From contig NZ_CP117522.1 of assembly GCF_031679605.1 (NCBI RefSeq), forward strand, positions 8,866,001 through 8,930,000: a stretch of DNA of 64,000 nt, given 5' to 3'. A program made the translations under genes and the position numbers. The first letter of the stretch is position 1, and the number at the start of each line of letters is the position of its first letter. The notes under the pieces are model-generated. The model saw nothing but the letters and a program-made list of their open reading frames with translations. It was not told where the DNA came from and ran no database searches. The DNA comes from Streptomyces luomodiensis. Its GTDB lineage: Bacteria; Actinomycetota; Actinomycetes; Streptomycetales; Streptomycetaceae. Positions 50,718 through 55,025 of the stretch are shown here, in pieces.

Positions 50718-52646
50718 TTGCGCACGCTCACCGCACCGCCCGACTGGCTGACGCACCCCCTGCGCGGGATGCGGGCCCTGCGGGGCCCGGTGCCCTGGGC
50801 GGCGGTGGTCCGCGGGGCGCTCGGCGTGGGGCCGGTGGTGGCCGTCGGCGTCGCGTCGGGACACACCCCGTTCGGGGTGGTCGCCGGGCTGGGCGCGATG
50901 TTCGCCCACATCAACGACCGTCCCGCCACCCGCGCCACCCGCCCCGTGCGCATCGGCCTGCCCGCCCTCGCCGGCGCCGCCGGCCTGCTGACCGGGGCCT
51001 GGCTGGGCACCCTGGGCCTCGGGGCGTGGATCGCGCTCGCCCTCGCCGCCGTCGGACTGGTCTCCGGCGCGATCAGCGCCATCGGCCCGGTCAGCTCCTC
51101 CGCCGGGGTGCAGCTGATGGTGGCCGCCGTGGTCGGCGCGGGCATGCCCCTGCCGGTGCCGCCGCCGGTCCGGGCGGGCCTGCTGCTGCTCGGCGCCGCC
51201 TGGGTGCTCGCGATGGCCGCGCTGCTGCCCCGCGTCGTCCCGGCACGCCAGACCGCGCCCTCCGGGCAACGGGAGGCGGTGGCCGCCGTGTACGACGCCC
51301 TGGCCGACCTGATGACGGCGGTCGGCACCGACGGCGGCCAGGCCGCCCGGCGCCGGCTGACCGCCGCCTACGACGCCGCGTACGAGGCCCTCTACGCCCA
51401 CCGGCTGCCACTGCACCGCCTCGACGCGGAGGAGCGGCGGCTGCGCGACCGGCTCGCGGTGGCCGGAGCGCTCAGCGAGGCCGTCCTGACCCTGCTGTGG
51501 GAGCACGCACCGGTGCCCGGCCGGATCGCGCGCACCCCCGCCCAACTGGCCCGCTCGGTACGGACCGGACTGCCACCGGGCCGGCTCCCCGCCCCCGTAC
51601 CCGACACCGCGGGCAATGTGGCCATGCACCGGGCCGTGCTGCTCGCCGCCCGGGTCTTCGACGGCGAACCGGCGCCCGCCGTCGGCCCCGTGGTCCCCGG
51701 CCACCGGCAGCGGCTGCGCCGCGCGCTCGGCCCCGCGGGCCGGGAGTACGCCGCCCGGGTGGCCCTGTGCGTGGGCGTCAGCACCGCGCTGGCACAGGCA
51801 CTGCCGGGCGCGCACTGGTACTGGCTCCCCGCCACCGCCGCCTTCCTGGTCAAGCCCGACATGGGCCCGCTGGTCTCCCGGGCCCTCTCCCGCGCGCTGG
51901 GCACCGCCGTGGGCGTGGCCGTCTTCGGCGGGCTCGCCACCCTGCTCGGCCCCGGCCAGGGCGTCGCCGGCAGCTGGCCGGTCGCCGTCGCCGCCGTCTG
52001 CTCCGCGCTGATCCCCGTCTCGGTACGCCACTTCGCCCTCCAGACCGCCGTGCTCACACCGCTGCTGCTCTCCCTCGTCTACCTCGGCGGCGACACCGAC
52101 CCCGGGTTCGCCCGGCTCACCGACACGCTGCTGGCCTGCGCCGTGGTGCTGGCCGCCGGGGCGCTGCCCGGACTCGGCGGCCCGCGCGCCCAGGTGTCGG
52201 TGCGGCTGTCGCTCGCCGTCCGCGCCACCCGCGACCACCTCGACCGGGTGCTGACCGCCGAAGCGCCCTACGCCACCCGGCTGCGGCTGCGCCGCGAGGC
52301 GTACCGCGCACTGGCCGACGCCCGCCGCGCGGTGGAGGTGGCGAGCGCCGAACACCCGCCGTTCGGCCGGGACCTGGCGGCCTGGGCGCCGGTGGTCTTC
52401 GCCCTGGAGGAGATCGTGGACGCGGCCACGGCCTGCGGCGTACGGCTCGACCAGGGCGCCCCACAGCCCGAGCCCGCCCTCGCGGCCCGGCTGCGGGCCG
52501 CGCTGTCCGACCTGGCCGACGCCGTCGCCACCCGCCGCCCCCCGACGGACCTCGTGCTGCCCGTGGGGGCGGCGGTGGGGGACTGCGCGACCCTCGCGGA
52601 TGTCACCGCCGGGCTGCGCAGGGCCCGCGAACTGGCGCCGAGCTGA
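50718..52646 (+). CDS. FUSC-family multi-TM protein
   Basis: A 642-residue membrane protein with two blocks of about six hydrophobic segments separated by a helical cytoplasmic region, and a soluble helical C-terminus, the layout of FUSC/YccS/aromatic-acid-efflux-like proteins. The second block contains WYWLPATAAFLVKPDMGPLV, typical of FUSC. The apparent start is TTG 50718 with GGAGGA five bases ahead; no ATG or GTG is better placed. The 124-bp tandem array starts within 55 bp of the stop. Substrate unknown. Confidence 0.78.
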   Translation: MRTLTAPPDWLTHPLRGMRALRGPVPWAAVVRGALGVGPVVAVGVASGHTPFGVVAGLGAMFAHINDRPATRATRPVRIGLPALAGAAGLLTGAWLGTLGLGAWIALALAAVGLVSGAISAIGPVSSSAGVQLMVAAVVGAGMPLPVPPPVRAGLLLLGAAWVLAMAALLPRVVPARQTAPSGQREAVAAVYDALADLMTAVGTDGGQAARRRLTAAYDAAYEALYAHRLPLHRLDAEERRLRDRLAVAGALSEAVLTLLWEHAPVPGRIARTPAQLARSVRTGLPPGRLPAPVPDTAGNVAMHRAVLLAARVFDGEPAPAVGPVVPGHRQRLRRALGPAGREYAARVALCVGVSTALAQALPGAHWYWLPATAAFLVKPDMGPLVSRALSRALGTAVGVAVFGGLATLLGPGQGVAGSWPVAVAAVCSALIPVSVRHFALQTAVLTPLLLSLVYLGGDTDPGFARLTDTLLACAVVLAAGALPGLGGPRAQVSVRLSLAVRATRDHLDRVLTAEAPYATRLRLRREAYRALADARRAVEVASAEHPPFGRDLAAWAPVVFALEEIVDAATACGVRLDQGAPQPEPALAARLRAALSDLADAVATRRPPTDLVLPVGAAVGDCATLADVTAGLRRARELAPS

Positions 52647-52683
52647 GCCCGCGCACTGGCGGCCCGGCGGCGGATGGCACCGG
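52647..52683. other. Short spacer between FUSC gene and tandem array
   Basis: Thirty-seven bases between the FUSC stop and the first recognisable repeat sequence; no feature seen. Confidence 0.4.
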
Positions 52684-53177
52684 TGCGCAGGGGGCACCCC
52701 GTCCTGCCGCGCACCGCACCCCGTCGGCGGTCGATGCGGGTCTCACCGGGGAGGCCGGGGAGGTCCGGGAAACGGGAGTGTGCCGTCGAGCCGGTGGACG
52801 GCTCGGTGTGCAGGGGGGCACCCTGTCCTGCCGCGCACCGCACCCCGTCGGCGGTCGATGCGGGTCTCACCGGGGAGGCCGGGGAGGTCCGGGAAACGGG
52901 AGTGTGCCGTCGAGCCGGTGGACGGCTCGGTGTGCAGGGGGGCACCCTGTCCTGCCGCGCACCGCACCCCGTCGGCGGTCGATGCGGGTCCCACCGGGGG
53001 GACCGGGGAGGTCCGGGAAACGGGAGTGTGCCGTCGAGCCGGTGGACGGCTCGGTGTGCAGGGGGGCACCCTGTCCTGCCGCGCACCGCACCCCGTCGGC
53101 GGTCGATGCGGGTCTCACCGGGGAGGCCCGGGAATCCGGAGTGTGCCGTCGAGCCGGTGGACGGTTCGGTGCGGGTG
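52684..53177. repeat. 124-bp tandem repeat array, four units
   Basis: Units start at 52701, 52825, 52949 and 53073 (GTCCTGCCGCGC...), exactly 124 bp apart; a partial unit end precedes the first from 52684. Units 1 and 2 look identical, unit 3 has a few substitutions near 52991-53003, and unit 4 lacks 9 bp and is truncated after its hairpin. Each unit contains the perfect stem CGAGCCG-GTGGA-CGGCTCG (first at 52787-52805; last at 53150-53168 with one G-T pair) and a GTGC/GCAC stem. Because 124 is not a multiple of three, no single frame repeats, so the long overlapping ORFs here are not credible proteins. Confidence 0.9.
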
Positions 53178-53280
53178 GGTGCGCGTAGGACCGCGCGACG
53201 GCGGAACGGGCGGTCGTCCCGCCCGCCGGAGTCACCTTCGGTATCGCCCCGTGCGTACCGTGCGCGCCGATGGGCCGGCG

Positions 53281-53328
53281 GGCGCCGTGCTCACCCGGTC
53301 CGCGGCGCCGTGCTCACTCGGTCCGCGG
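53281..53328. repeat. 23-bp tandem repeat spanning the AlkA stop codon
   Basis: GGCGCCGTGCTCACCCGG at 53281 and GGCGCCGTGCTCACTCGG at 53304 begin near-identical copies of about 24 bp, period 23. The second includes the stop of the minus-strand Ada-AlkA gene (53314-53316); the first carries the same TGA triplet in a different frame. Confidence 0.7.
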
Positions 53329-54822
53329 GGACCGGGCGGCGTGCCACAGGTGGTGCATGGCGTACGAGCGCCAGGGGCGCCAGCTCTCGGAGTCCTCCAG
53401 CCGCGCCCCGGCGCCGCGGGCCCCGGCCCGTACGGCGACATCCGACTCCAGCAGCACATCGGGGTCGCTCAGCGCCCGCATCCGGATGTAACCGGCCGTC
53501 CAGGGGCCGATGCCGGGCAGCTCCAGCAGCTCCTTCTCGGTCCGGTTGCGCTCGGCGCCGGCGTCCAGCCGGACCGTGCCGTCCGCGAGCGCGGTGGCGA
53601 GCGCGCGCAGCGTGCCGCGTCGGCTCTCGGGCATGCCGAGTTCGGTGAGCGGCGCCTGGGCCAGGTCCTCGGCGCGGGGGAAGAGATGGGTGAGCCCGCC
53701 GTCGGGCCGCGCCAGGGGCTTCCCGTACGCGGCGACCAGCGCGTCCCCCAGCACGCGCCCCGCCGCCACCGAGACCTGCTGGCCGAGCACGGCGCGGACG
53801 GCGAGTTCGCCGGGGTCGGCGGCGCCCGGGGCGCGCAGCCCCGGCCGCGCGGCCACCAGGGGCGCGAGCGCGGCATCGGCGCCGAGCCGCTCGGCGACCG
53901 CGTAGGGATCGGCGTCCAGGTCGAACAGGCGCCGGATCCGCTGAATGGCGGTGGTCAGATCACGCAGCTCGGTCAGGCGCAGCCGGCACTCCAGCCAGCC
54001 GTCCCCGGGCCGTTCGTCGATCTCGGCGACCGCGCAGGCGTGCGGCAGCCGCAGGGTGCGGCGGTAGGTCCGGGCGCCGGGGGCGCCCACCATCTCCTCC
54101 ACACCGGTGAGGGTGCGCCGGGCGAGGTGGTCGAAGACCCCCGTGGTGTCGTACGGACCGCGGTAGGCGAGCCGCAGCGGTACCCCGGCCGTGCCGCCGA
54201 CCGCCCCACCGCCGGCCCCCAGCACCCCGCCGGCCGTCGCCGCGGGCCCGGACCTGACGGACTTCTCCGGCCGGGCGGCGCGCAGTTCGGTGGGGGTGGC
54301 GGCGTAGATCTCGCGCAGGGTGTCGTTGAACTGCCGGACGCTGGAGAACCCGGCCGCGAACGCGATCTCCGAGGCCCGCAGGGCGGTGGTCTGCAACAGG
54401 ATGCGCGCGGTGTGGGCGCGCTGGGCGCGGGCGAGCGCGACCGGTCCGGCGCCGAGCTCGGCCGTCAGCTGCCGCTGCACCTGCCGGGCGCTGTAGCCGA
54501 GCCGCGCCGCGAGCCCGGACACGCCCTCCCGGTCCACCACCCCGTCCCCGATCATCCGCATCGCGCGGCCGACGGCGTCCGCCCGCGCGTTCCACTCGGC
54601 GGAGCCGGGCACGGCGTCCGGGCGGCAGCGGCGGCAGGCCCGGAACCCCGCGCCCTGCGCGGCGGCCGAGGTCGGGAAGAACCGGACGTTCTTGCGCCGG
54701 GGCGTGGTCGCGGGGCAACTCGGCCGACAGTAGATCCCGGTCGTGGCGACACCGAAGAAGAACTCGCCGTCGAACCGCGCGTCACGGCTGCACACCGCCT
54801 GGTACCTGCTGTCCTCGCTCAT
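53314..54822 (-). CDS. Ada-AraC-AlkA fusion: DNA-3-methyladenine glycosylase with methyl-sensing domain
   Basis: A 502-residue DNA repair protein in three parts. Residues ~1-75 are the Ada zinc domain with Cys32, Cys36, Cys63 and Cys66 (YCRPSC, ACRRC), the same spacing as E. coli Ada. Residues ~80-180 are an AraC-type helix-turn-helix (GLAARLGYSARQVQRQLTAE). Residues ~210-502 are AlkA N-terminal and HhH-GPD domains, with AVLGQQVSVAAGR, LPGIGPWTAGYIRMRAL and the catalytic Asp in LLESDVAVR. It would sense alkyl damage and excise alkylated bases. ATG 54822. Confidence 0.9.
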   Translation of the reverse strand: MSEDSRYQAVCSRDARFDGEFFFGVATTGIYCRPSCPATTPRRKNVRFFPTSAAAQGAGFRACRRCRPDAVPGSAEWNARADAVGRAMRMIGDGVVDREGVSGLAARLGYSARQVQRQLTAELGAGPVALARAQRAHTARILLQTTALRASEIAFAAGFSSVRQFNDTLREIYAATPTELRAARPEKSVRSGPAATAGGVLGAGGGAVGGTAGVPLRLAYRGPYDTTGVFDHLARRTLTGVEEMVGAPGARTYRRTLRLPHACAVAEIDERPGDGWLECRLRLTELRDLTTAIQRIRRLFDLDADPYAVAERLGADAALAPLVAARPGLRAPGAADPGELAVRAVLGQQVSVAAGRVLGDALVAAYGKPLARPDGGLTHLFPRAEDLAQAPLTELGMPESRRGTLRALATALADGTVRLDAGAERNRTEKELLELPGIGPWTAGYIRMRALSDPDVLLESDVAVRAGARGAGARLEDSESWRPWRSYAMHHLWHAARSPRTE

Positions 54823-55025
54823 CACACCCTCCACTGTGCGCCACCGCGGGGGAGTGTGCTGGCGGATATCGGACATGGCGTTCCCGACCTCGCTCTACGC
54901 GTCAGCAAAGGAACGGCCGCCAGCTGAGCGCCACGCTTCCGGCGGTAGGATGCGGACCATGAGGCACCGTGCAGACAGCGCTCGACCAGCACGTTCGCTC
55001 CGCTCCCGCGGGCAGGTGGGCTGAG

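Follow-up and report, generated by a model that had tools for sequence, protein, structure and literature searches.

Tandem units made from two pieces of a lost gene between a FUSC_2 gene and an Ada/AlkA gene of Streptomyces luomodiensis

A tandem array of four units in the chromosome of Streptomyces luomodiensis originates from scraps of a gene that two relatives still carry intact at the same place, and its copy number differs between two strains of the species. We hold it very probable that the array is a young, pseudogene-derived minisatellite (VNTR), in which the hairpin carried by each unit is accidental and needs no selected function. What had appeared to be an unknown RNA element is thus better described as a traceable minisatellite birth, for which the intact gene, a truncated gene, scattered fragments, a fused scrap and a tandem array are all found at one place in one clade.

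The array and the lost gene

The array comprises four tandem units of about 124 bp (52681-53168) in a 10.04-Mb chromosome that is assembled as one contig. It sits in the interval between two convergent genes, and all positions refer to the window, i.e. the whole stretch of 64,000 nucleotides that was analysed.

50718 to 52646, plus strand: left neighbour, FUSC_2-type membrane-protein gene, 642 aa (ORF list; Pfam PF13515, E 1.5e-16)
52681 to 52805: unit 1
52806 to 52929: unit 2
52930 to 53053: unit 3
53054 to 53168: unit 4, 115 bp, 9 bp less than unit 3; a 9-bp stretch occurs once here, against twice in each of units 1-3
53314 to 54876, minus strand: right neighbour, Ada/AlkA-type gene, 520 aa (ORF list; Pfam AlkA_N and Ada_Zn_binding)

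The four tandem units that the original prediction had described are borne out by Tandem Repeats Finder, which reports 52681-53133 with a period of 124, 3.7 copies, 96% matches and a score of 857, the highest among its 31 rows for the window; the predicted unit starts (52701, 52825, 52949 and 53073) are correct, and the repeat is far beyond chance. The 124 bp starting at 52701 are identical to the 124 bp starting at 52825. A query search of the chromosome, with 40 of 114 first-look candidates scored, found the array in a single place at E ≤ 1e-3, and on the same evidence an interspersed repeat of the MIRU or REP type, with copies scattered through the genome, is not supported.

We compared 18 named loci with the FUSC gene, in 15 of which the interval up to Ada/AlkA is readable wholly or partly (the sequences of L033, L038 and L048 stop short of it). 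This interval is 2.6-2.7 kb long in S. rugosispiralis (L039) and S. violaceusniger (L034), where an open gene of 791 codons occupies the minus strand; its protein is 94.6% identical between the two species. Pfam assigns NLPC_P60 and Cutinase to the product, with SH3_3 below the curated cut-off, and three similar SH3-like stretches can be made out by eye in the translation of the C-terminal part. A protein search gave a match at E ≤ 1e-10 in 8 of 22 genomes: two intact genes, one truncated gene, one remnant and four partial matches with 37-44% identity over part of the product. No intact copy was found elsewhere in the S. luomodiensis genome, where the protein query gives no match at E ≤ 1e-10 and four partial-length matches at E ≤ 1e-3 with 34-37% identity (the best 37% at 1.2e-10).

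Two pieces of this gene are recognizable at the array.

52663 to 52717, minus strand: left piece of the unit, from the lost cutinase/NlpC-P60 gene, comprising its final codons and stop (68 bits, 89% to S. rugosispiralis, L039 7943-7997)
52762 to 52810, minus strand: right piece of unit 1, with the hairpin, derived from the lost gene's first SH3-like stretch (47.3 bits, 82% to L039 8684-8733)

The match of the right piece in the intact gene lies about 0.69 kb beyond that of the left piece, on the same strand and in the same order. Together the two collinear matches sum to 115.3 bits, a value that neither 2000 dinucleotide shuffles (best 56.6) nor 2000 natural pieces of the window (best 55.7) attained. 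In the alignment the fusion point falls near 52717-52721, and the deletion amounts to about 0.66 kb. When the units are translated and compared with the gene product, residues 491-556 are matched in all four, and residues 773-791 are also matched in all four, weakly (E 0.13-0.25). Read from these alignments, the unit consists of two pieces from the 3' half of the 791-codon gene, which this deletion joined and which were subsequently duplicated in tandem. The earlier argument that the period could not encode one repeated protein holds for the present array, but the unit itself goes back to a minus-strand coding sequence.

The two edges of the scrap are alike over about 20 bp (left CGGCGGATGGC-CCGGTGCG, as in strain S465, against right CGGTGGACGGCTCGGTGTG), and a duplication between such edges would give the 124-bp period. 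Only the last unit continues rightward into gene-like sequence, as expected from the duplication of one scrap. We infer the breakpoint mechanism from our reading of the edges, not from intermediates.

Remains of the gene are spread over the clade. Gene DNA was compared with 22 intergenic pieces, the window included, and at E ≤ 0.01 matches were obtained in 11, among them the window, S465 and the S. violaceusniger gene. G096 retains a truncated gene (residues 430-791), S. iranensis three fragments (90-95%), S. antioxidans one fragment of 74 bp (81%), and G243, G462, L036 and L045 short pieces; the matches in L037 (71-73%) are doubtful. Because the retained pieces differ, they suggest several separate losses, and the differing endpoints of the remnants likewise suggest that the gene was lost rather than gained.

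Other features were noted in this interval. In S. iranensis a MITE-like element of 116 bp with long inverted ends (GAGCCTGTGTCATATCCCCGG...CCGGGGATATGACACAGGCTC) lies just past the FUSC stop (L043:7930-8045), and in Streptomyces sp. NBRC 110028 a 6-O-methylguanine DNA methyltransferase gene (L040:7950-8645; Pfam PF01035, E 3.6e-34) adjoins Ada/AlkA. Further tandem arrays occur in relatives, with units of 32 bp (2.8 copies) and 14 bp (3.4 copies) in L036, 14 bp in L034 (5.5 copies) and L041 (3.3 copies), and 19/38 bp in L037; tandem duplication seems to arise readily in the interval that follows FUSC.

Change between two strains

Strain S465 of the same species has an array of two units where the luomodiensis window has four, so that a variable-number repeat, one of the options originally listed together with a check of copy number between strains, is upheld in this one strain comparison. 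S465 is also the only one of the 15 named relatives with a readable interval to carry the array, which is absent from the other 14. Assembly can collapse or expand tandem arrays, and the copy number might on that account be an artefact, but the S. luomodiensis genome is one contig, its units have distinct substitutions, and S465 carries the array with a last-unit variant in common; we consider such an artefact extremely improbable.

Comparison of units from the two strains gives 8-11 mismatches (about 7-10%) and 8-17 gap columns, whereas the FUSC gene has changed at 19 of its 1926 bases and at 9 of its 509 fourfold sites (1.8%). The flanks of the array differ at 5 of 105 aligned columns on the right (4.8%, with 27 gap columns) and at 0 of 29 columns on the left (with 8 gap columns). 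The array changes faster than the FUSC fourfold sites, as does the right flank to a lesser degree, and the contrast between units and fourfold sites is therefore partly a property of the interval. Variants common to the units within a strain separate them from the units of the other strain, and the last unit of each strain carries the same G.U stem variant. It therefore seems that the array predates the divergence of the strains and that its units have since been partly homogenised.

The 9-bp doublet (GGGGAGGCC/GGGGAGGTC, at window positions 52744-52769 with copies in units 2 and 3, of variant form in unit 3, and single in unit 4) is absent from the intact gene and present in the last S465 unit; unit 4 may have lost one copy, or the other units may have gained one. 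Elsewhere in the same interval, a stretch of 23 bp is doubled at window positions 53281-53328 and occurs once in the S465 sequence.

These observations can be assembled into a course of events. A minus-strand cutinase/NlpC-P60 gene with SH3-like repeats would once have lain between the FUSC and Ada/AlkA genes, and deletions would have taken nearly the whole of it, leaving the end of the coding region fused to part of the first SH3-like stretch in the way seen in the alignment. The fortuitous likeness of the edges over about 20 bp could then have allowed slippage or unequal recombination to produce the 124-bp duplication. Copy number and unit sequence would have changed thereafter, with partial homogenisation within strains, as the two strains compared here display. 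The hairpin would have arisen from GC-rich codons and been multiplied along with the unit, with no selected function needed. The origin from gene scrap and the difference in copy number are shown by the sequences compared; the mode of duplication and the lack of function are what we take these results to imply. The array may be of use as a strain-typing marker.

The hairpin

Each unit contains one copy of the hairpin.

52787 to 52805: hairpin 1, CGAGCCG-GTGGA-CGGCTCG, exact
52911 to 52929: hairpin 2, CGAGCCG-GTGGA-CGGCTCG, exact
53035 to 53053: hairpin 3, CGAGCCG-GTGGA-CGGCTCG, exact
53150 to 53168: hairpin 4, CGAGCCG-GTGGA-CGGTTCG, one G.U pair in plus-strand RNA and a mismatch in minus-strand RNA

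The stem had been described as kept in every unit, including the shortened last one; this is exact for units 1-3, but unit 4 retains it only with the G.U wobble. Unlike the repeat itself, the hairpin as a structure is not beyond chance: perfect stems of 7 bp or longer around loops of 3-8 occur 129 times in the window, or about 2 per kb. The folding of a single unit, in a rotation that cuts the hairpin, is no better than that of shuffles (z of -0.03 on the plus and 0.50 on the minus strand), and in the folded interval other pairings compete with the stems, whose pairing probabilities are 0.39, 0.13, 0.01 and 0.78-0.86. In a GC-rich tandem repeat, moreover, a hairpin in every unit counts as one observation.

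The minus-strand sequence of unit 1 is ..HTEPSTGSTAHSRFPDLPG.. at the place where the intact gene has ..HTEPSAGSAVHSTFPGPTG.., and these are the codons over which the hairpin lies. Six of the seven stem pairs are already formed in each of the S. violaceusniger, S. rugosispiralis and G096 genes. The hairpin is therefore most likely a coding relic extended by one pair, that is, a chance feature of the old coding sequence.

A serial terminator, taken over from the gene scrap and possibly acting for both convergent genes, would suit the setting and the hairpin itself, which has a GC-rich stem, a loop of 5 nt and an energy of -12.8 kcal/mol on the plus strand. There is also a possible precedent in S. 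clavuligerus, for which a passage of PMC8269248 describes some highly structured 3' ends that have no U-rich tract and may be I-shaped terminators. Against this, no U-tract follows the stem on either strand (2 and 0 T in 8), as a U-rich intrinsic terminator would have, and a terminator scan that requires T returned no site, as did a promoter scan. With the competing pairings and the absence of the array from 14 of the 15 readable relatives, we judge the terminator, which the original prediction had offered as an option, to be unlikely and so far without support. Very unlikely, in our estimate, is a related possibility, that the array of hairpins from the dying gene has been co-opted as a buffer, variable between strains, whose copy number tunes transcript overrun between FUSC and Ada/AlkA.

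The stem is present in all six units of the two strains, with one G.U in three of them, which could be read as selection for a structured RNA or a protein-binding array. Changes at both partners, however, are seen in none of the seven stem pairs (in an alignment of 9 rows, 7 of them distinct, whose small size gives weak power), and variable columns are about as frequent in the hairpin (2 of 19) as outside it in the unit (13 of 91). Both stem positions that have changed within the arrays are C to T, with G.U pairing kept in plus-strand RNA; such changes would also be expected under weak selection for the stem and carry little weight either way. Rfam has no match within the array, the sole one in 52000-54000 lying outside it at 18.4 bits against a gathering score of 40, and the units diverge faster than the neighbouring FUSC fourfold sites. 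The structured-RNA option thus finds no support, and we regard a selected RNA or protein-binding array as highly improbable.

The proposed search of other genomes with the unit failed to reveal a spread beyond the species, there being no array copy outside it in 199 relatives or 392 genus genomes. Short matches to the array at E ≤ 1e-3, several of them over the hairpin, occur in 25 of the 199 genomes (the own genome included), clearly above the 4 of 199 given by a reversed-sequence control, which has the base composition of the query without reproducing the word usage found in Streptomyces coding DNA; the excess speaks against pure chance. All 29 match sites outside the own genome fall in frames of at least 293 codons with a GC3 of 0.78-0.98, which are stop-to-stop frames rather than confirmed genes. 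When the core stem (GAGCC, 7 bases, GGCTC) was sought in 29 + 23 loci, it was found within the match or gene solely in G096, the other occurrence being about 1 kb from the match in L014. A spread hairpin element was accordingly rejected, and the short matches other than that of G096 are taken as coding words without the hairpin. The 29-base stretch that includes the hairpin has no exact match in viral contigs.

Comparison with known systems

None of the literature titles listed concerned the array or a Streptomyces minisatellite derived from gene scrap. I-shaped terminators of GC-rich bacteria, to the extent that the passage of PMC8269248 describes them, resemble the array hairpin in their GC-rich stem, short loop, lack of a U-tract and position downstream of a gene, whereas the array hairpin is not conserved in place, is of coding origin and is known here from sequence alone.

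The likeness to pseudogene remnants is closer. Such remnants are fragments, in syntenic position, of a gene that relatives carry intact, and the array likewise is homologous to a gene that relatives retain whole in this interval, with no intact copy in its own genome; here, in contrast, the fragments have been fused and then amplified in tandem. Bacterial VNTRs consist of head-to-tail units of about 10-150 bp with strain-variable copy number, which the array matches in its period of 124 at 96% and, in the one comparison, in its copy number. One such VNTR of the M. tuberculosis complex lies between rnc and fpg1 (ETR-F, VNTR3239) according to an excerpt of PMC2734929. As far as that excerpt goes, the two systems are alike as intergenic direct repeats of tens to about 100 bp, variable in copy number among isolates and absent from more distant relatives, and differ in that the Streptomyces unit can be followed back to a lost gene, two pieces of which were fused. 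The array is a minisatellite from pseudogene scrap and, as such, a further instance of a kind already known.
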